Below, piece after piece: positions 3,208 through 23,644 of a stretch of 28,051 nt of DNA. A program made the translations under genes and the position numbers. Source of the stretch: a virus; IMG/VR virus record IMGVR_UViG_3300034198_014719, positions 1 through 28,051 of that record; one strand, given 5' to 3'. How positions within the stretch are numbered: position 1 is the first letter of the stretch; each line of letters begins with the position of its first letter. The notes under the pieces are model-generated. The model made no database searches, was not told the origin of the DNA, and worked only from the letters and a program-made list of their open reading frames with translations.

Positions 3208-3420
3208 TTAAATGTTTCGATATTTTTCTGTCATTCTGATCATCATCTCCATCTTGAGATCTTGATACTCCACAGAGACATTCTTTCTGGAGTGCTTATT
3301 GAAGAATCCATTCATCAGATTCACAATGGATATCATGTAGTTCTCTTTGTCATATCGGCATGACTCAATGGCTTTGATGACATAGTCATAGTCATTCATG
3401 ATTCTCTGGAAAGGACTCAT
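3208..3420 (-). CDS. Hypothetical protein (70 aa)
   Basis: A 70-residue basic, helical protein, MSPFQRIMNDYDYVIKAIES..., with no domain I can name. Its ATG overlaps the TGA of the 158-aa gene (3420/3417). It sits in the uncharacterised block downstream of the ERF gene. Confidence 0.75.
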   Translation of the reverse strand: MSPFQRIMNDYDYVIKAIESCRYDKENYMISIVNLMNGFFNKHSRKNVSVEYQDLKMEMMIRMTEKYRNI

Positions 3421-6099: not shown

Positions 6100-6125
6100 A
6101 AAAAAAAAGCGCCATTGCTGGCGCT
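6100..6125 (-). terminator. Rho-independent terminator, end of late operon
   Basis: On the minus strand AGCGCC-AGCAAT-GGCGCT (6125-6108) is followed by a run of nine T (6108-6100). This GC-rich hairpin is one of the few places where CpG is retained in the genome. It lies 54 bases after the last late gene (80-aa membrane protein). Confidence 0.85.
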
Positions 6126-9400: not shown

Positions 9401-9976
9401 TCAGCAATCACAATCTCTTGAAAGTCTTCCTATGTATTTTCCATTGAAGTCATATCTGCATGATCTCTTCAAAGCAAGTCCAGTCCGATAGTTGCTTCTG
9501 TTTGGAAGGATGGTATCATAGTCACCAGAAGGACTGGCATAGGCTGGAAAGTCTGAATCATTGGTGATCAGATATCTTGTCAATCTCTCAGAATACCATT
9601 CTGCTTTGTTTCTGAAGAAGTCCATCTGATCCTTCAGCTCAGACATTGAAGCAATCTGAGCATTCTCAGAAGTCCCTCTCTGGACATTCATATTGTCATA
9701 TCTGAAAGCCAAGATCATTGGAGCTTCAGTCATCACCCACCATGTCAAGGCTGGTTGAATGTATTCCTTGAGAAGATTTTCATTGAGCTCAGTGAGATCA
9801 TCATTGATGATTTGATCACTGATCTCTTTGAATAGATCTGATCCAATTATTTGCTGGATGTACATCTCTTGGCACATCACAATTGTTGGCCTGAGCTTGA
9901 TCAGACTGACATTCTCACTGATGAAGGCATTGTCCTTCAAGTTGTTTTCCGATATGAATAGTGGCTTTGGGCTCAT
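9401..9976 (-). CDS. Head-tail connector-like protein (191 aa)
   Basis: A helical 191-residue protein. 'FISENNLKDNAFISENVSLI' and 'IQQIIGSDLFKEISDQII' resemble the all-helical connector/adaptor proteins of Bacteroidota phages (DUF6712-like): an 'I..aQ...I..ilG..Lf..i' core helix followed by 'LLKEYIQPALTWWVMTEAP'. Such proteins bind the portal and form the neck, which fits its place directly after the portal gene. I chose the ATG at 9976 (ATGA overlap with the portal stop); the longer start at 10021 lies inside the portal frame. The C-terminus is Cys/Arg-rich (RDCDC). Confidence 0.75.
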   Translation of the reverse strand: MSPKPLFISENNLKDNAFISENVSLIKLRPTIVMCQEMYIQQIIGSDLFKEISDQIINDDLTELNENLLKEYIQPALTWWVMTEAPMILAFRYDNMNVQRGTSENAQIASMSELKDQMDFFRNKAEWYSERLTRYLITNDSDFPAYASPSGDYDTILPNRSNYRTGLALKRSCRYDFNGKYIGRLSRDCDC

Positions 9977-11940
9977 GATTTCTTTCTTTTTACAAGGACT
10001 TGTGACCAGATATGACGGCATGATGGTCTTGTCACTCCATTGGTGGGATCATGATACCATCCTCCTCTTGTCTCCCAGACAGATCTTCCAACTTTTTGAG
10101 AGATGAAGTCAATGTCTTGTCTTCTGAAGTATTTCTTTGACTCAATCATCACCTTGCAGAATTCTCTTGTGGTGGGAATGATGGCTTTTCCATACTCTGG
10201 AAGGACATCATATTTGTACATGATCTCAATTCCAGCAATTCCTTTCTCTTTCCTGATGAAGTCCTTTGACTTCTCTCCAAGTTGCTTCAATGTTCCTTTG
10301 ATATTGATTGCTCCTTGATCAATCAGATAGGAGATCCTCTCACTGATCAGATCAATGTCTTGTCCAGTTGCAATTGAGATCTCAGTTGCTGAGACATTTG
10401 GATTCTTCTCAATCTCCTTCAAGATCTGGCTGTCAAGATCTTCATATTCTGACGCAAATTCAATCTCCTGATTCTCGAATCCATACCTCATTGGCCTTGA
10501 TTTTAGCTCAATGAATTCTTCTTGAATGTGACCTCTCTCAGCAAAAAGAGCAAGAACTTCTTTGTCCTCACTGATTGAGCTGAATTGAGTTGGTGTGCTT
10601 GATGCTGTGGATGGAGGAAGGCCAGCCAGAGATCTGATCTCAGCATCTGTCATCTTCTCCAGAATCTTATTGGCCACCAAAGGACTCAAGGCTTGAATGC
10701 TGTCAGTTGTTTTTGGTGTGTTGACAGAATCATCTGGAAGTCCAGCCATTGTCCTGAGCTCAGCTCTGGAAGCAATCTGAAGCAATGAAGCTTCTGTCAG
10801 TCTCTCATTGATTGGATCTGTAGGCACAATGGAAAGCACATTGCCAAGTCCAGCAAAGCTCAGAATGTAGTTGAAGATCTTCTCAATCTTTTGCTGTCTG
10901 TCATTGATATAGACATTCTTGAAGAGCTCATAAGCTTCAATGATCTCTGATCTCCCACCAAGCTGGCCAGACTCCTTGATTCCAAAGAGCATGCCTGATG
11001 TCACTCTGTGAGATGTGAAGATCTCTTGCTGGATCTGTGAATTCAAGATATCGAATTGCTTGTCAATATCAGCTGGATTGATTGGTAGAACTTCAAGAGC
11101 TCTGTCTCTTCCATCATTGAAAGCAATCATGATTCTATCACCAGAATCTCCAGCAAATTTGTTCTTCACTTCCTTCTCAATCTCAAGCTCCTCCTCCTCA
11201 GATGGAAGTCCATTGTTGAAGTTGAAGATCATTCCTCCCAGAAAGCCATTCCTGAGATTGTTGACATGGAAGTTTGCAATCCTTGCATCTGTTTCAATGT
11301 AGCTGATTGCTCCAAAATACTCTGGCAATGGATAGTAAATTGTCGCTGGAGAATAACTTCCAAAATAGAAGAGCTGTTTGCCAAAGCGGTTGTCTGGATT
11401 GAATGGCTCATACTCAATTAATCCATCAGGATCACCTGACTTCTTCCATTCTTCTGCAAAATAAAACTTTGAGAAGTCTGGAGATACCCTGATCTTTCCA
11501 GCATTCACATGGCTGATGGCTGATGGCTCTCCTTGAAAGTTCCATACCACTTCCAAGGCAATTGAATTGAAGATCTCAAGATCATTGGCCACCTTGAAGA
11601 GAATGTCATTCAAGTCATCATAGGGATTGGGATTCTCCAGAAGAGTCTGAAGAGTTGCAAGAGCTTCACCAGTGACAGCTTTGGCATCATAAGTCCATCC
11701 CTTTCCAACAATGTAATTCACTTTCCCATTGATGATGGCATTGTGCTTGGCTGATTTTTGATACAGCTCAAGCAAGAAGACATTCAGAAGATTGTCATTG
11801 CCATAGTTGACATACTTTGCTCCATTCTTCACCTTGAATTCTGGAAGCTTGGCTTCAAATTTCAATGGCTTCTCAAAGCTTTTATTCCAGCTCATTTGTG
11901 GCTTATTGCCTATGACCTTATATCCTTTTTTCGTTCTCAT
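9973..11940 (-). CDS. Portal protein fused to winged-helix and MuF-like C-terminal domains (655 aa)
   Basis: The portal forms the ring at the capsid vertex through which DNA passes. Residues about 30-400 carry the portal core: 'YQKSAKHNAIINGKVNYIVG' near the N-terminus and 'QQEIFTSHRVTSGMLFG' near the end of the core are typical of this portal family. A low-complexity spacer (about 400-500) follows, then a small winged-helix-like domain (503-548; 'NVSATEISIATGQDIDLISE'). The C-terminal domain (about 575-655) has 'TTREFCKVMI', 'WETRGGWYHDP' and 'SCRHIW' with Cys595, Cys641 and His643, the pattern of MuF-like minor capsid/head morphogenesis domains. It is therefore a portal-MuF fusion. The gene lies downstream of capsid and tail tube genes, an unusual place. 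Confidence 0.9.
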   Translation of the reverse strand: MRTKKGYKVIGNKPQMSWNKSFEKPLKFEAKLPEFKVKNGAKYVNYGNDNLLNVFLLELYQKSAKHNAIINGKVNYIVGKGWTYDAKAVTGEALATLQTLLENPNPYDDLNDILFKVANDLEIFNSIALEVVWNFQGEPSAISHVNAGKIRVSPDFSKFYFAEEWKKSGDPDGLIEYEPFNPDNRFGKQLFYFGSYSPATIYYPLPEYFGAISYIETDARIANFHVNNLRNGFLGGMIFNFNNGLPSEEEELEIEKEVKNKFAGDSGDRIMIAFNDGRDRALEVLPINPADIDKQFDILNSQIQQEIFTSHRVTSGMLFGIKESGQLGGRSEIIEAYELFKNVYINDRQQKIEKIFNYILSFAGLGNVLSIVPTDPINERLTEASLLQIASRAELRTMAGLPDDSVNTPKTTDSIQALSPLVANKILEKMTDAEIRSLAGLPPSTASSTPTQFSSISEDKEVLALFAERGHIQEEFIELKSRPMRYGFENQEIEFASEYEDLDSQILKEIEKNPNVSATEISIATGQDIDLISERISYLIDQGAINIKGTLKQLGEKSKDFIRKEKGIAGIEIMYKYDVLPEYGKAIIPTTREFCKVMIESKKYFRRQDIDFISQKVGRSVWETRGGWYHDPTNGVTRPSCRHIWSQVLVKRKKS

Positions 11941-12337: not shown

Positions 12338-12367
12338 AAAAAAAAAGAGGATCACTGAGATCCCCTT
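12338..12367 (-). terminator. Rho-independent terminator after the major tail protein
   Basis: On the minus strand AAGGGGATC-TCAGT-GATCCTCTT (12367-12345, 9 bp with one G.T pair) runs into nine T (12346-12338). It lies 22 bases after the tail-tube stop. Confidence 0.85.
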
Positions 12368-15160: not shown

Positions 15161-17272
15161 TTATTTAATTTTTGAAGTTGCTTTCAATCTTTTTGATCTT
15201 CCTTGCATATCTGTCATCTCTGATTCCACCACATAAGCCTTGACTGATCTGTTCTGCTTGAGATCTCCAAACTGATCCAGCTGAATCTGTGTGCCAGTTG
15301 GAAGTTGACTGCCAAAAGCTGAAGCTGATGGAGCTGATGTCAAGCCAGCTCCTGAAGGGACAGATCCTCCACCTCCTCCACCTGAATTTGGAATCTGGAC
15401 TTTGTTGATCTCTCTCACTTGCTTGAATCCATTCAAAGCAATGACAGAAGCATTGGCAATCTTTACAGCTGTACCGAATGGCTCTGGATATGGATTCTTT
15501 GCTTTGATGACTTCAGAGATCCCCAGATAGGTATTGATCAGAGCTTGTGCTGAAGCCAGTGCTTTGCCAGCTTTTGTCTCCTTGCCTACAGCATCAGAGA
15601 GAGCTCCAAAAAGATCAGCCACACCTTTGGTCAGTTCTTTCTTTCCTTGCAATTGAGCTTGATCAAGTTTCTTGACAGCTTCATTGTATTGCTCTTGAGT
15701 CAAGATACCATTCTGAAGTCCATTTGTCAGAATTGAATTGATCTCATCATAGGTCTGAGAATAGTCTTCAGCTCCTTTCTCAAGTGCTTTCCTTTGCTCA
15801 TCCTTTGTCTTATCAGCAATCTCTTTCTTCTTGAGTGCAATCTGATTCTCAATCTCAATTGTGCTTGCTCCATAGTCCTTCTGGATCTGAAGGAGTTGCT
15901 CAAGCTTTTGCAATTCAAGATCAGCTGTGCTCTGATTATTGACTTTTGCATTGGTGATCAATGTATCAAAGTAGCCATTTGAAAGCTCCTTTGCTTTGTT
16001 CAATTCATCTTCAGTCCTCTTCAGGAAGTCTTCTGAGTTCTTCTTCTTAGCTTCTTCTGCTTTTTTATTTGCTTCATCAATCTTCTTCTGATCCTCCTCT
16101 CTTTGTTTTTGAGCTTTGTCAGATGCTTCTTTGTCAAGCTTCTGGACTTCAAGCTTGAATCCAGCTTGCTCATTCACCATCTGATTGAGCTTCTTCTCCA
16201 TCTCATCAACACTCTTCTGGCCTTCCTTGGCCATCTCTTCTGGATCAAAAAGAATGGATGCTCCAAAGTCTTTCACCTTCTCAAAGCTCTCACCAAGATT
16301 CAACTTGAAATCAATGCCAGCTCCAAAAAAGTTGGCTGTCTCAATCAAGCCATTCACAATGCCATCAATGGAATTGGTCAGGAGCTTCATTGGATATGTC
16401 AAGACATTCAAGATGCCCATGACAATATCTTTATTCCTCTTTGCTCCTTCTACAGCTTGCTTGTTTGCCAGTTGTTGTCCTTTGATCTGACTTTTGATTC
16501 CATTGATGATGGCATCAGTCTCTTTGATCTTGATATTCAAGATGTCTCTCTGGCTCTTGCCTTGAAGCTTCAATACGTTTTCAGTATCTTTTGTCAAGTT
16601 ATATTTTTTCTCAGCTTGCTCTGTGTCAAGCTTTGACTTTTTTATCATTGCTTCAGTCTCTTGACTCACTCCAGAGACAGCTTCTTTCAAGTCATCCCAA
16701 TAAGCCACAAGAGTGCCGATCAGCACAATGATTGCTCCAATTCCAGTGGCCACCAAAGCTCTTGAAAATCCCTTTGTTGCTGTAGTTGCAACTTCAGTGC
16801 TCACTGCATTGGCCTTCTGAGCATTGCTCAAGAATAAAGAGCTGAATGCTGATTCCTTCTGCAAGATGTTTGTGATCTCTGTCACTCCCTGAAGAATGGC
16901 CATTGCTCCCTGAGTTTTCAAGATGGCCTTCTGGAGATCTTCATTCTCAGATCCAAAGACAGCCATTGCTCCCTGAGCAACTGCAAAGCCACCAGCAATC
17001 CCTTGGATGGCCTGAGTCATTGCATCAAGCTTGTAAGTATCTGAAGCCAGAGCATTGATTCTGGCTTTCGTATCTCCTATCTGATCCTTCAGCTGGCCAG
17101 CTCTCTGTGCCATCTTCTGGAATTGAGCTGATCCTTCTTCACCAGCTTCAGACATTCGATTCATCTCCTTCTCAATCTCCTTCAGCTCTTGCTTCAGAGA
17201 CTTAAATCCCTTGGTTGCTTCATTGGTATCTGAGGAGACCTTGAGCAATATATCTTTTTCTACATCTGCCAT
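15161..17272 (-). CDS. Tail tape measure protein (703 aa)
   Basis: Sets tail length and is ejected with the DNA. The N-terminal coiled coil (about 15-70; 'GFKSLKQELKEIEKEMNRMS') is followed by the Ala/Gly/Gln-rich block 'MTQAIQGIAGGFAVAQGAMA', typical of Bacteroidota-phage tape measures, then a hydrophobic segment (about 172-191; 'LVATGIGAIIVLIGTLVAYW') and a very Lys/Glu-rich coiled coil (about 370-430). The C-terminus has a Gly run. At about 1.5 angstrom per residue, 703 residues would give a tail near 100 nm, so a siphovirus (inference from the usual rule). It lies between the tail-tip genes upstream and the protease downstream. Confidence 0.9.
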   Translation of the reverse strand: MADVEKDILLKVSSDTNEATKGFKSLKQELKEIEKEMNRMSEAGEEGSAQFQKMAQRAGQLKDQIGDTKARINALASDTYKLDAMTQAIQGIAGGFAVAQGAMAVFGSENEDLQKAILKTQGAMAILQGVTEITNILQKESAFSSLFLSNAQKANAVSTEVATTATKGFSRALVATGIGAIIVLIGTLVAYWDDLKEAVSGVSQETEAMIKKSKLDTEQAEKKYNLTKDTENVLKLQGKSQRDILNIKIKETDAIINGIKSQIKGQQLANKQAVEGAKRNKDIVMGILNVLTYPMKLLTNSIDGIVNGLIETANFFGAGIDFKLNLGESFEKVKDFGASILFDPEEMAKEGQKSVDEMEKKLNQMVNEQAGFKLEVQKLDKEASDKAQKQREEDQKKIDEANKKAEEAKKKNSEDFLKRTEDELNKAKELSNGYFDTLITNAKVNNQSTADLELQKLEQLLQIQKDYGASTIEIENQIALKKKEIADKTKDEQRKALEKGAEDYSQTYDEINSILTNGLQNGILTQEQYNEAVKKLDQAQLQGKKELTKGVADLFGALSDAVGKETKAGKALASAQALINTYLGISEVIKAKNPYPEPFGTAVKIANASVIALNGFKQVREINKVQIPNSGGGGGGSVPSGAGLTSAPSASAFGSQLPTGTQIQLDQFGDLKQNRSVKAYVVESEMTDMQGRSKRLKATSKIK

Positions 17273-19463: not shown

Positions 19464-20710
19464 AGTGGAATGGTCTGATCAATTGTCAACTTGTATGTGA
19501 TGGTCAGATTCTTCAGCTGATCAAAGTCTCTTTTGAAGACTTGGAATGAAGTATTTGTGATGATCACTGGAATCATCAAGGTGTTTATCTTCACCCACAC
19601 GAAAGGACTTGTAACCATCTCTTGAAGCCATTGGAATTCAGAATCTGAAAGCCAATTGCTTTGGACTTGATATTCTTTTGTCCACTTGAGATCACTGATG
19701 AATCTTGATGAATCAGTCATCTGGTAGCCATAGCTGGAAGATCCTCTCACAAGCAATGGCTTCGAGCTCTCCACTCTGGTGATGGTGTTGCTCTCTCTGT
19801 TTGGTTTGGTGAATTGGAAGGTATCAATCCCACCAATAGCATTCTGAAAGTAGAATTCAGTGACTTCAGTCTGAGGACATTCATCAGTCAAGACAATTGT
19901 GTACATCTCTGTAGCATATTGCTCTGAATCAAAGCTGATCTCTCCTTGAATAGTAATATAGCAGAATGGCTCAAGTCCCATGTCTGCATCTCCATTTCTT
20001 CCATCACTTGTGATGCTTTCTGGGATTGTCTGAATGTTTCTCCATCCAGCTGGAATTCTGAAGCAAGAGAATTGATTGTCTTCTGAAGTGCTGTGATCAT
20101 AGTATAGATCAGTCTTGATTGAATAGCTTCTGAGAAGTGATCCTTCCTGATTGTAATATTTGTATCTTATTCCATCAATGGTGGGAATTGTAAGCTGTTT
20201 GCTCATGAAGTACAGCCATGCATGATCAAGCTGGATTGTTGTTGTCCTCTTTGTTGTCCAGTTTGTCAAGGCTTTCACAAGGAAGTCTCCAGCTCCATCA
20301 GCAATCCAGTCATTCTGATCAAATTCTGGAAAGTCAAAAACTGGAAGAGCTGAGAGATATGCATTGCCAGAGAAGGAATCCTGAAGAGCTGAAAGAGTGC
20401 CATCAATCTCATTGAACAATTCCACATCATAGGAGACATTCATCTGTCTGTTGTATGCTGTTGGAGTGCTGAGATCATTATCAGCATTCAAAGTCAGAAG
20501 GCTTCTCAAGACTTCTCTGATATTGAAGTATGCTTGTAAAGTTGTTGGATCTGGAGCTGATTTGAATCTTGCAATCACATCTCCTTGTAATTTCACATCA
20601 ATCACATAAATGAATCCAGATGTCCCAGCTGTAGAATCCCATGTCACAAAGGTGATTGGATTTCCTATAGGAGTGAATTCTGATGGTGTTTGCAAAAAAG
20701 TTGTAGCCAT
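19460..20710 (-). CDS. Tail protein, distal-tail-like (416 aa)
   Basis: A 416-residue beta-rich protein starting MATTFLQTPSEFTPIGNPIT, a lead-in shared by Bacteroidota-phage tail proteins that sit just before the large hub protein. It contains 'YFNIREVLRSLL', 'SCFRIPAGWRNIQTIPESIT' and a C-terminal part ('MIPVIITNTSFQVFKRDFDQ', 'LTITYKLTIDQTIPL') that resembles the closing strands of distal-tail-type proteins. Role in the tail tip is inferred from context and pattern. The start overlaps the previous stop by one base (TAATG). Confidence 0.72.
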   Translation of the reverse strand: MATTFLQTPSEFTPIGNPITFVTWDSTAGTSGFIYVIDVKLQGDVIARFKSAPDPTTLQAYFNIREVLRSLLTLNADNDLSTPTAYNRQMNVSYDVELFNEIDGTLSALQDSFSGNAYLSALPVFDFPEFDQNDWIADGAGDFLVKALTNWTTKRTTTIQLDHAWLYFMSKQLTIPTIDGIRYKYYNQEGSLLRSYSIKTDLYYDHSTSEDNQFSCFRIPAGWRNIQTIPESITSDGRNGDADMGLEPFCYITIQGEISFDSEQYATEMYTIVLTDECPQTEVTEFYFQNAIGGIDTFQFTKPNRESNTITRVESSKPLLVRGSSSYGYQMTDSSRFISDLKWTKEYQVQSNWLSDSEFQWLQEMVTSPFVWVKINTLMIPVIITNTSFQVFKRDFDQLKNLTITYKLTIDQTIPL

Positions 20711-21291
20711 TAGATAGTCTCTTTTATTATTTGAATGTTTGCATCAGCCACCGATTCCATCAGAAGTCTGATTCTTTCCTCTGTCAAAGCTGGATCTCTG
20801 AATGGCCTTGGCTTGATACCATACTTGAAGATGTTCTTCTGGATGTCAGATGCTTTGCTCTCAATGTCTTCCAAGTTATTCATGCCAGTGAAGATCCCCT
20901 TTGCATTTCCCCACTCCACAATAGCTGAAAGTGGTGGATATTTTGAAGAATAGCTGAATGGAGAATTTGGAGCTTTCTTGCTTGACTTTGCTCCCTTCAC
21001 TCCATACTCCATATACTTCCAATATTTATTGGCTTGGATCACCACTTGATAGGTATCTCCAAACCTTTCATAAGGAAGAGGAATGATGGACTGCCTGAGC
21101 TTTCCAGTTGCTCTCCCATCCTTGATGCCATTGGTTGATCCCATGTTGTTGAATTCTTGCTTGAAAAGTTCTGCTTGCTCATTGCACCAGTCAAAGATCT
21201 TTTGGATGGTTTCATTCTCCATCTCAGTTGTAAGATCTTCTTCCATGAATCCAACATCACCAATTATCTCAGCGCTAAACTTTTCAGCCAT
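20710..21291 (-). CDS. HK97 gp10-like tail-completion / neck protein (193 aa)
   Basis: Resembles HK97 gp10-type proteins, which close the top of the tail or the neck. 'RATGKLRQSIIPLP', then 'YQVVIQANKYWKYMEYGVKG' and a conserved Tyr-x-Glu-x-Gly segment are the family hallmark. The C-terminus has 'GIKPRPFRDPAL', the usual 'xPRPFxxPA' motif of this family. It begins 8 bases after copy B of the TCTGCATT element. Confidence 0.83.
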   Translation of the reverse strand: MAEKFSAEIIGDVGFMEEDLTTEMENETIQKIFDWCNEQAELFKQEFNNMGSTNGIKDGRATGKLRQSIIPLPYERFGDTYQVVIQANKYWKYMEYGVKGAKSSKKAPNSPFSYSSKYPPLSAIVEWGNAKGIFTGMNNLEDIESKASDIQKNIFKYGIKPRPFRDPALTEERIRLLMESVADANIQIIKETI

Positions 21292-21299
21292 GTAAATGG

Positions 21300-21316
21300 A
21301 ATGCAGATTTTTCTAT
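21300..21316 (-). promoter_or_regulatory. Repeated TCTGCATT leader element, copy B
   Basis: Minus strand ATAGAAAAATCTGCATT (17 bases), identical to copy A at 26914-26930. It includes the TAG stop of the upstream gene and ends 8 bases before the ATG at 21291. Confidence 0.6.
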
Positions 21317-21579
21317 CTGTTACCTTTGTTTTTTGCCTCCCAAAGATCTTGACTGGCTTGATCATTCATGAAGATGATCATGTTGAAGAATTCATACAAA
21401 GGAAGCTCAAAGACTTCCTTCCATTTCAGTCTGTCCTTGCCAGCTATCTTGTCCACCATAATCAGCCATCCATAGATCTCAGTGAAGTTTGTTGACTGAT
21501 CAGGAAGATCTGTCACTTCAGTTTGTTGCTGATCAAAAAGCGCTCTAAAGTTTTTGACAAGCTCAGATAACTGAGCAAA
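21313..21579 (-). CDS. Tail assembly chaperone, frameshift extension (C-terminal part of a 255-aa fusion)
   Basis: The -1 frame opened by slippage at the nine-U run. It has no stop from 21579 to the TAG at 21315-21313, giving 88 residues added to the first 167 of the upstream frame: FAQLSELVKNFRALFDQQQT and then 'EIYGWLIMVDKIAGKDRLKW'. In phages such as lambda, the longer frameshift product (gpGT) binds both tape measure and tail tube. An internal GTG (21516) overlapping the zero-frame TGA could alternatively start a separate 67-aa protein; the uninterrupted frame upstream of this GTG back to the U run favours fusion. Confidence 0.75.
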   Translation of the reverse strand, partial: FAQLSELVKNFRALFDQQQTEVTDLPDQSTNFTEIYGWLIMVDKIAGKDRLKWKEVFELPLYEFFNMIIFMNDQASQDLWEAKNKGNR

Positions 21580-22079
21580 AAAAAAGCGCTGATCCCCATT
21601 GCATCCACAGCTTTCATGTGTTTTCTGACCAGATCAGCCTTCTTCTGGTGATGACTTCCATCATACTTCTTTGGATTGCCGATCCAGTTTGTCTCTCTCA
21701 GCAATGTTGCAACAATCTGGTGAAGATTCTCCACTGCCTTGGCTGGATCTTTGGTGAAGTGAGCAAAGTCCACCCACTGAGCTGTGGTGAATTCATCAAA
21801 GAGTCTGGAGATGTAGTATCTTTTGCCATCAAGCTTGACATAGAATTTGAATGGCTTGAATGGCTCTTGATTGAGATCAGCTCTGATCTTTCCATACCTA
21901 TTCAAAAGCTCATCAATGTCCATCTCATCCACTTCATCCATGGTCTTCTGATCCACAATTGCAATGACTGACTTGGCCATGTCCAAAAGCTCAAAGTTAT
22001 TTGGTATTTCTTGGATGGCTTGGAGTTGCTGGACATTCAACATCTCCCATGTCTTATTGTTTTTTTTACCTGATAGCAT
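21513..22079 (-). CDS. Tail assembly chaperone, short (zero-frame) product (188 aa)
   Basis: A 188-residue protein, beginning MLSGKKNNKTWEMLNVQQLQ with 'FYVKLDGKRYYISRLFDEFT' in the middle and a Phe/Leu-rich end ('GISAFFLLSYLSLSKTLERF'). By size, frameshift signal and its place before the tail genes I assign it as the gpG-like tail assembly chaperone, which coats the tape measure before tube polymerisation. The 'NKTWEML' segment near the start resembles the domain beginning of such proteins, so the first ATG (22079, 14-nt overlap with the terminase) is kept. The frameshift site lies at codons 165-167. Confidence 0.78.
   Translation of the reverse strand: MLSGKKNNKTWEMLNVQQLQAIQEIPNNFELLDMAKSVIAIVDQKTMDEVDEMDIDELLNRYGKIRADLNQEPFKPFKFYVKLDGKRYYISRLFDEFTTAQWVDFAHFTKDPAKAVENLHQIVATLLRETNWIGNPKKYDGSHHQKKADLVRKHMKAVDAMGISAFFLLSYLSLSKTLERFLISNKLK
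21561..21585 (-). promoter_or_regulatory. Programmed -1 frameshift site: nine-U slippery run plus hairpin
   Basis: In the message, GC-U(9)-GCUCAG UUAU CUGAGC: the U run spans 21585-21577 and the perfect 6-bp hairpin spans 21576-21561. The zero frame reads GCU UUU UUU UUG CUC; after slipping back one base the frame reads UUU GCU CAG and joins the open frame ending at 21313. The hairpin lies 3' of the U run, so this is not a terminator. Spacing between heptamer and hairpin is only about 2 nt. Confidence 0.78.
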
Positions 22080-23208
22080 ATTTTCCTGAATTGGTTATTC
22101 TGAATTTGTTTAATCCCACATACATCATGCCATCCAGAAGGTGATCATCCTTCTTGATTGGCTCATTGCTTCCATCATCTTTGTATTTATAGGAAGAGAT
22201 CTCTCTGATGAAGTTCTTTGAATTGGCTGTGATGTGAATCTTGAATCTTCTCATGATATCAATCATCACTCTCTTCTCCTTTCCTTGAGCTGGCTCAATT
22301 CTCCAGCCAAGTCTTCTGAGCTCCTCTATGGACTTTGGCTCAGCTGAATCAGCAACAATGATCTCTGTCTTCTTCACTCCCAGATTGAGGAATCTATCAC
22401 TGATGTCTTGATTTGTCAGTCCAGTCTCATAGAGAATCTCCTGAGCATAGATCTCTCCATCCATCTTGAAGATCTTGCTCACAGCTGTAGGTGAATTGGA
22501 GAATCCAAAGTCAAGACCATAAGAAATCAATTCAGCTTGAGCTGGGATGCCTTGACAGATATCCCAATTCCTGAAGACAAGTCCTTCTACCTTTCCAGTC
22601 AATCCTCTGGCATAAACTTTCCAGAGCTCAATGTCCTGATCTTTCAGATCCTCAATCTTCTGTCTGATGGAATCTGGCACGAATGGATTGTGCCTATGAT
22701 CACTGATGATCAGCTGTACTTCTGGAAGTCCTATCAGCTTATCATGTACCCAGAATTTTGCATTCGGATTGAAGTCCATAAAAGTCTGGTGTGTTGTCCT
22801 CATGTACAGCTCATGGAAGATCTCTTCATCAATTCCATTCACCTCATTCAAAAAGAGGAAAGCTCTCTTCCCAGACTTGGCATCTTGCCCATTGTCATAG
22901 CTCTTGAATTCCATGACAGCATCATTGACAAAGGTGAAGATCCTATCACTGGCATTGTAGGCTTTTATCCATGATTGAATCTCTGGTGACTTGGCTACAA
23001 TGGTTTGCATGTCTCTGAGAGCTCCAGACTTTAGATTTGGAATATCTTGTCCCACAATTGTTATTGTGGCGCTGGGATTCTCAATGGCCTTCAAGATCAA
23101 CACCTGAAGGATGCTGTATGTCTTGCCAGAGCTTGTCCCTCCTTGATTGATCACAATCTTGGCTGTGCTCTGGTAGTTTGCTTCAAATATTGGTGAAGTT
23201 TTAAACAT
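22066..23208 (-). CDS. terL: Terminase large subunit (380 aa)
   Basis: The packaging motor and nuclease, Terminase_3-like. ATPase: Walker A GGTSSGKT (23-30), Walker B-like 'RAFLFLNEVN' (115-124, catalytic Glu122 with Asn in place of the usual Asp before it) and coupling motif 'DFNPN' (145-149). Nuclease: Asp233 in 'YGLDFGF', Asp287 in 'VADSAEP', and Asp355/Asp359 in 'KDDHLLDGMMY'. I chose the ATG at 23208 ('MFKTSPIFEANY'), the usual family start; an in-frame start at 23265 would add 19 residues overlapping the small subunit. It overlaps the small subunit by 8 nt. Length is somewhat short for the family, but both domains are complete. Confidence 0.93.
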   Translation of the reverse strand: MFKTSPIFEANYQSTAKIVINQGGTSSGKTYSILQVLILKAIENPSATITIVGQDIPNLKSGALRDMQTIVAKSPEIQSWIKAYNASDRIFTFVNDAVMEFKSYDNGQDAKSGKRAFLFLNEVNGIDEEIFHELYMRTTHQTFMDFNPNAKFWVHDKLIGLPEVQLIISDHRHNPFVPDSIRQKIEDLKDQDIELWKVYARGLTGKVEGLVFRNWDICQGIPAQAELISYGLDFGFSNSPTAVSKIFKMDGEIYAQEILYETGLTNQDISDRFLNLGVKKTEIIVADSAEPKSIEELRRLGWRIEPAQGKEKRVMIDIMRRFKIHITANSKNFIREISSYKYKDDGSNEPIKKDDHLLDGMMYVGLNKFRITNSGKYAIR

Positions 23209-23644
23209 CTTGGATCTGATCTTCTGAGCTGGCCAGTGGGATGTCACTTGCAATGACTTCAACATTGATCACTGGATCTGGCATCTGTATGGTGGTGGTG
23301 ACTGATTCTTTAGGCTTTCCAAAAGCTCTGTCAAAGAGGACTTCAAGAATATGTGCTGATCCTTTCTTTCTGTCTCTGATAGCTTTGTTTGCAATCAAGT
23401 TCAGCCAGAATGGTACATCATCTCTCTTGACAAGATCTTCAATTTGAGGAGTTGTCATGCAAAGCACAGCCATGATCAGATCACTGGCATCAGCATTGCT
23501 CATCCTGATCTGATGCTCATCCATGAAGTAATTCTTCAATTGATTGGTGATCTTCTTTGCTGATCCAGCTCTATTGATGTTTTGAGGATTATTTCTGAAT
23601 CCTCCTTTCTTGATGTTCTCCAGTCTTTTGTCACCTTCCTTCAT
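23201..23644 (-). CDS. terS: Terminase small subunit (147 aa)
   Basis: Recognises phage DNA and recruits the large subunit. The N-terminus 'GGFRNNPQNINRAGSAKK' is the low-complexity 'NPQNINRxG' start found in small terminases of this type (DUF5681-like). A helical part ('SNADASDLIMAVLCM', 'DVPFWLNLIANKAIRDRKKG') and the C-terminal 'AFGKPKESVTTTIQ' motif follow, common in small terminases and their relatives. It sits directly before terL with an 8-nt overlap. Confidence 0.85.
   Translation of the reverse strand: MKEGDKRLENIKKGGFRNNPQNINRAGSAKKITNQLKNYFMDEHQIRMSNADASDLIMAVLCMTTPQIEDLVKRDDVPFWLNLIANKAIRDRKKGSAHILEVLFDRAFGKPKESVTTTIQMPDPVINVEVIASDIPLASSEDQIQDV

Follow-up and report, generated by a model that had tools for sequence, protein, structure and literature searches.

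A conserved nine-T run in probable tail assembly chaperone genes of Bacteroidota phages as a candidate site of RNA-polymerase slippage

Tail chaperones with two products are a textbook example of ribosomal frameshifting, and those of lambda (gpG/gpGT) and HK97 (gp13/14) are made by ribosomal −1 shifting. A different route to two products is programmed transcriptional slippage, which operates in the dnaX gene of Thermus thermophilus (A9) and the mxiE gene of Shigella (U run) (PMC1088944). In both genes RNA polymerase slips on an internal run of about nine As or Ts to give a second product, and slippage in mxiE joins two overlapping frames into a longer protein. We analyzed the viral record IMGVR_UViG_3300034198_014719 over positions 1 to 28,051 (28,051 nucleotides (nt), hereafter the window), which carries a probable tail assembly chaperone gene with a run of nine Us (U9) in its coding strand. 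Unlike the lambda and HK97 chaperones, this gene has a pure U9 of conserved length, has no conserved stimulator and lies beside terL; no sequence similarity to those chaperones was detected by Pfam and PHROG-type profile searches. It resembles dnaX and mxiE in the run, and mxiE in the proposed joining of two frames, but these are cellular genes whose slippage was shown experimentally, whereas in the phage tail gene slippage is inferred. Comparison of the window with its relatives suggests that RNA-polymerase slippage explains the T9 sites better than ribosomal frameshifting, with a probability of about two in three (0.68).

The slip site and its reading frames

The gene is encoded on the minus strand of the window, and its features are as follows.

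21313..22079, minus strand: two-product gene, probable tail assembly chaperone, 255-amino-acid −1 fusion; kept in the closest relative (L002) and in a large family
21513..22079, minus strand: short zero-frame product of 188 amino acids (N-part, gpG-like); model with a predicted local distance difference test score (pLDDT) of 92.8 that weakly matches HK97 gp13
21577..21585, minus strand: U9 slip site GCU UUU UUU UUG; run of 9 or 10 in 165/165 tabulated family loci
21313..21576, minus strand: gpT-like C-part extension in the −1 frame, stop included; family C-part homology and third-position bias against L002
21513..21576, minus strand: dual-coded stretch from the run to the zero-frame stop; few differences from L002
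21561..21576, minus strand: 6-bp hairpin, probably incidental; mismatch in L002, missing from the window's own clade

The U9 (21585 to 21577) is located near the 3' end of the 188-codon zero frame and contains an in-phase slippery heptamer of the X_XXY_YYZ type, GC[U UUU UUU]UUG. Past the run, the −1 frame stays open as far as 21313, and joining it to the zero frame would yield the 255-amino-acid protein. A GTG at 21516 in this frame overlaps the zero-frame stop. A preliminary description of the sequence had listed the U9, the adjoining hairpin, the open −1 frame, the overlapping GTG and the product sizes of 188 and 255 amino acids, all of which were found again. The coding strand of the window holds three U9 runs, and the run in the chaperone gene is the sole intragenic one. 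The remaining two (6100-6108 and 12338-12346) are intergenic and possibly parts of terminators. A second slippage-prone run, an A8 in the mRNA, occurs in the 5' part of the chaperone gene (22060-22067; codons 5-7, GGT AAA AAA AAC) and is also found in L002 (GGTAAAAAAAAT).

Direct searches with the window protein returned only L002 from viral contigs and nothing significant from phage records, Pfam or PHROGs. L002 retains both the U9 and the −1 frame, the latter with 74% identity. Past the zero-frame stop, the differences between the window and L002 are distributed 9/7/25 over the codon positions of the −1 frame, and those in the N-part 34/20/69 over the codon positions of the zero frame. Only 3 differences occur in the first 45 nt of the dual-coded stretch from the run on. 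The −1 frame of L002 contains no ATG, GTG or TTG until codon 63 of 85, which indicates that the GTG at 21516 is not a conserved start. Family-wide, the −1 frame shows no stop as far back as the run and is conserved up to that point, and a common start codon is missing from its first 25 codons in 30 of 54 sequences. The relatives were checked for a clearly separate second gene and for loss of the run or the frame, either of which the preliminary description had named as evidence against its proposal, and neither was found. These comparisons indicate that the −1 frame is coding, is under selection and is joined to the zero frame in a predicted fusion product.

Run length and codon phase in the phage family

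The wider family was reached through a homologue of the gene next downstream in the window, which led to two loci with the same layout and a U9 (L007 and L008) and from these to the cultured Nonlabens phages P12024L and P12024S (JQ823123 and JQ823122), which likewise carry the U9. As in the window, the Nonlabens phages have the N-part, the −1 C-part and the T9 adjoining terL, but they are annotated with two hypothetical proteins here, have the site CTT TTT TTT TAT and share only ~20% identity with it. Scans with the N-part gave several hundred relatives, and about 200 related loci share the run together with the −1 frame. Comparison by hhalign connected the window to this large Bacteroidota phage family, whose C-part lies in the −1 frame, with E values of 1.4e-8 for the C-part and 1.3e-5 for the N-part. 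N-part models reached pLDDT values of 94.3 and 92.8 (the latter for the window), and their BFVD matches were largely the same viral proteins. PHROG 32199, of unknown function, covers the family N-part. Among 395 Bacteroidota genomes, the T9 family was represented by a single prophage, in the centre genome itself.

Two candidates for membership were set aside. Proteins encoded in a single frame behind terL, in L003 as well as in Bacteroides phages, have a similar appearance on visual inspection; since comparing the profiles gave no significant match, we do not claim them as relatives. Flavobacterium phage 6H (L179, NC_021867) encodes a distant protein of the same fold (10047-10927, minus strand) followed by an unannotated gap of 300 nt. 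It has no T9, and its −1 frame opens only past a stop, so that its frame arrangement differs.

We tabulated the slip site for 165 family loci, which fall into 53 clusters at an amino-acid identity threshold of 70%. The run was T9 in 157 loci and T10 in 8, and no locus had a shorter run or an interrupted heptamer. The run starts mostly at codon position 2 and elsewhere at position 3 or 1, and phases 0, 1 and 2 are all represented. The extra Ts on the 5' and 3' sides of the in-phase heptamer trade off against each other (1+1, 0+2, 2+0, 1+2, 2+1), and their sum is never below two. Random pairing of the 5' and 3' extensions is expected to leave 5.2 clusters below nine, whereas none was observed, and zero was obtained in 0 of 200,000 permutations. 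Since this test is blind to relatedness, trees were built. The N-part tree revealed at least 8 changes of run length or phase, and in the tree of the fused proteins phase 2 and phase 0 each arose more than once. The window groups in the latter with L223, L224, L257, L234 and L259, all T9 in phase 2 (Shimodaira–Hasegawa-like approximate likelihood-ratio test, 98). Upstream of the site in these genes, phenylalanine is encoded by TTT 305 times and by TTC 105 times; TTC being common there, its absence from the slip site is itself selected, whichever mechanism operates.

A scan led by terL (a seven-row pattern) sampled loci independently of the T run, counting those in which both parts were found. 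The 45 loci comprised 41 with T9, two with T11 (L201 and L227) and two with T7 (L181 and L183), so that the run was at least nine in 43/45. The T11 sites keep the same −1 relation and possibly have a higher level of slippage. Another locus (L207) looked in-frame in one scan, apparently owing to a later indel in the C-part, and its site is still T9. Taken over both samples, nine Ts seem to be required in the T9 lineages, whatever the phase.

The two loci with T7 are members of a prophage clade (L181, L183, L261-L293) that shares the layout and the −1 C-part with the window but forms a single separate branch on the fused tree. Prophages of this clade are common, with 57 carriers among 301 genomes sampled from a single Bacteroidota family, and the terL products of L181 and L183 are 51-54% identical to that of the window. 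Unlike the window, the clade mostly has runs of 7 Ts and a fixed codon phase: the site CA[T TTT TTT] carries 7 Ts in 27, 8 Ts in 4 and 9 Ts in 1 of the 32 sequences. RNAalifold returned no covarying structure for the clade. With at least 7 Ts in a fixed phase, its site looks like a ribosomal U_UUU_UUU site. A single sequence of high GC content (L188, around position 3240) has no T run; CAT TTT ATC is immediately followed by a strong 10-bp GC-rich hairpin, the C-part lies in the −1 frame, and the site likewise looks like one for ribosomal frameshifting. The −1 fusion thus appears to be conserved while its signal differs between clades.

Polymerase or ribosome at the T9 sites

Ribosomal slippage requires seven in-phase Us. 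Slippage of RNA polymerase requires a run that fills most of the RNA:DNA hybrid, in any codon phase. The occurrence of runs of at least nine in all three codon phases hence favours transcriptional slippage over the ribosome. A run of nine As or Ts whose length is conserved in homologues has been regarded as very likely to reflect purposeful transcriptional slippage (PMC1088944), and slippage by Escherichia coli RNA polymerase favours poly(T) (PMC6260861). The family sites show two features of such slippage, namely a run of at least nine that is conserved in homologues and independent of codon phase and RNA structure. In the proposed mechanism, RNA polymerase would slip while copying the nine template As, where the hybrid is all rU:dA, and a fraction of the mRNA would then carry U10 (or U7) in place of U9. 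Normal translation of the U10 mRNA (GCU UUU UUU UUU GCU CAG) would produce the 255-amino-acid fusion with the junction A-F-F-F-A-Q-L, and the U9 mRNA would give the 188-amino-acid protein. The ratio of short to long product would be set by slippage at the level of transcription, with no RNA structure required. The junction peptide does not separate the two mechanisms, since the U10 mRNA read normally yields the same A-F-F-F-A-Q-L that had been offered as a test of ribosomal shifting. The programmed −1 frameshift of the preliminary description thus holds as far as the conserved fusion is concerned, whereas the runs of at least nine in all three phases do not support the ribosome as its default agent.

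RNA structure near the slip site was also evaluated. The hairpin GCUCAG-UUAU-CUGAGC (21576-21561), a perfect 6-bp stem directly 3' of the U9, starts 2 nt past the in-phase heptamer. A spacing of 4-10 nt is the rule applied for frameshift stimulators (PMC4066793). L002 has a C-C mismatch within the hairpin, and the five other members of the window's own clade (L223, L224, L257, L234 and L259) lack it. Over the family, the mean z was −0.12 downstream of the run and 0.15 upstream, which gives no structural signal on either side. On these results the hairpin was rejected as a stimulator, a role that the preliminary description had implied. The hairpin itself exists as described, but it is not remarkable: the window contains 96 perfect 6-bp hairpins, the chance of one starting in any given 10 nt is 3.4%, and this one is probably incidental. 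Upstream motifs resembling a Shine–Dalgarno sequence were rejected as stimulators as well, being found in 5/53 sequences against a background of 11.5%, with no excess. Some ribosomal frameshift sites function without stimulators.

The alternative of a programmed −1 ribosomal frameshift, with tandem slippage of two Phe-tRNAs on a U_UUU_UUU inside the run, is rather unlikely as the explanation of the T9 sites, although it accounts for several observations. An in-phase U_UUU_UUU is present at each T9 site, the relatives with a fixed-phase T7 or with a GC-rich hairpin and no run (L188) seem to use ribosomal shifting, and such shifting is the established route in lambda-type tail chaperones (PMC5009743). 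The extra Ts would then be inherited, raise the efficiency or encode preferred residues. However, T7 or T8 would suffice for the ribosome and changes of phase should leave such runs behind, yet they occur in 0/165 T9-family loci, while T8 does occur in the T7 clade (4/32). No stimulator is conserved, the window's hairpin being both unconserved and only 2 nt from the heptamer, and in E. coli U_UUU_UUU causes far less shifting than A_AAA_AAG (PMC5009743). It is very improbable that no frameshift occurs and that the second frame forms a gene of its own with a translationally coupled start at the GTG at 21516. This GTG does overlap the zero-frame stop and the Nonlabens phages are annotated with two genes here, but such a start does not fit the late first start codon of L002, nor a family frame that is open and conserved back to the run and has no common early start in 30 of 54 sequences.

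Still less credible is a variation of run length in the DNA (phase variation, or sequencing or assembly error) with no programmed event. T9 runs are prone to sequencing error. They are also liable to replication slippage, as discussed in PMC1088944, but many independent assemblies and the two cultured phages give 9 or 10 Ts with the same −1 relation, this relation between N-part and C-part is identical across all three run phases, and the dual-coded stretch is conserved in L002. Several points weigh against RNA-polymerase slippage, our preferred explanation. The in-phase U_UUU_UUU lies inside every T9, so that the ribosome can contribute, and both processes may be at work, the polymerase mechanism being derived from comparison. 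The preference for poly(T) is known for the polymerase of E. coli, whereas that of the hosts is presumably a Bacteroidota enzyme. The permutation test takes no account of relatedness, and in most clusters phase 1 reflects common descent. Finally, the evidence for the chaperone role itself consists of synteny, layout and a structural match that is weak (Z 3.7).

Chaperone identity, neighbouring genes and implications

The gene product is likely a tail assembly chaperone of the gpG/gpGT kind, as judged by synteny in a morphogenesis cluster, the two-product layout and the weak match to HK97 gp13. For the N-part model of the window, HK97 gp13 (2ob9_A) was the first of nine PDB matches, with a weak Z of 3.7. 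A Foldseek search of the PDB with L015 gave nothing convincing and no match to a solved chaperone, and one BFVD relative with weak similarity (E 7.7e-3) is named tail assembly chaperone. The position of the gene is unusual in that it adjoins terL instead of lying directly upstream of the tape measure gene, which is usual but not strictly required for gpG/gpGT. The gpG/gpGT identity given in the preliminary description is thus likely, while the ribosomal mechanism attached to it is not supported. The short and long forms would act as gpG- and gpGT-like chaperones that handle the tape measure protein in tail assembly.

The surroundings of the gene are a tailed-phage morphogenesis cluster with the following members.

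22066..23265, minus strand: terL, upstream neighbour; PF04466 E 2.9e-13, PF17288 E 1.2e-10, phrog_2 E 3.5e-27
20710..21291, minus strand: downstream neighbour, tail-completion or neck-like, weakly HK97 gp10-like; phrog_5 E 0.0019, PF04883 E 0.052
15161..17272, minus strand: tape-measure candidate, ~4 kb downstream; phrog_24676 E 6.9e-14, phrog_1538 E 4.2e-7

This placement, with terL directly upstream and the tape-measure candidate ~4 kb downstream, agrees with the preliminary description. Among the relatives of the window's terL are many from phages that infect Bacteroides, Flavobacterium or other Bacteroidota. The portal gene (9973-11940) lies far downstream of terL, an unusual position for a portal, and the C terminus of its product has a winged-helix-like match (PF13412, residues 501-545, E 3e-4).

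Searches of the open literature, in which subscription journals are largely uncovered, gave no account of transcriptional slippage for tail chaperones or for Bacteroidota phages. We lean slightly towards the broader view that a large group of Bacteroidota phages sets its chaperone ratio by RNA-polymerase slippage at an invariant T9, which would make these the first tail chaperones known to use this route, and that a prophage clade has switched to a ribosomal T7 site, comparable to dnaX in Thermus and E. coli. An unnamed gene after terL with an internal T9 in a Bacteroidota phage should be read as a −1 fusion in annotation, and the cultured phages P12024L and P12024S make slippage directly testable. 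If the proposal is true, the product ratio would be set at transcription, and it would be the output, not the mechanism, that is conserved. The homologous T7 and T9 clades would then represent a natural experiment in which one mechanism turns into another.
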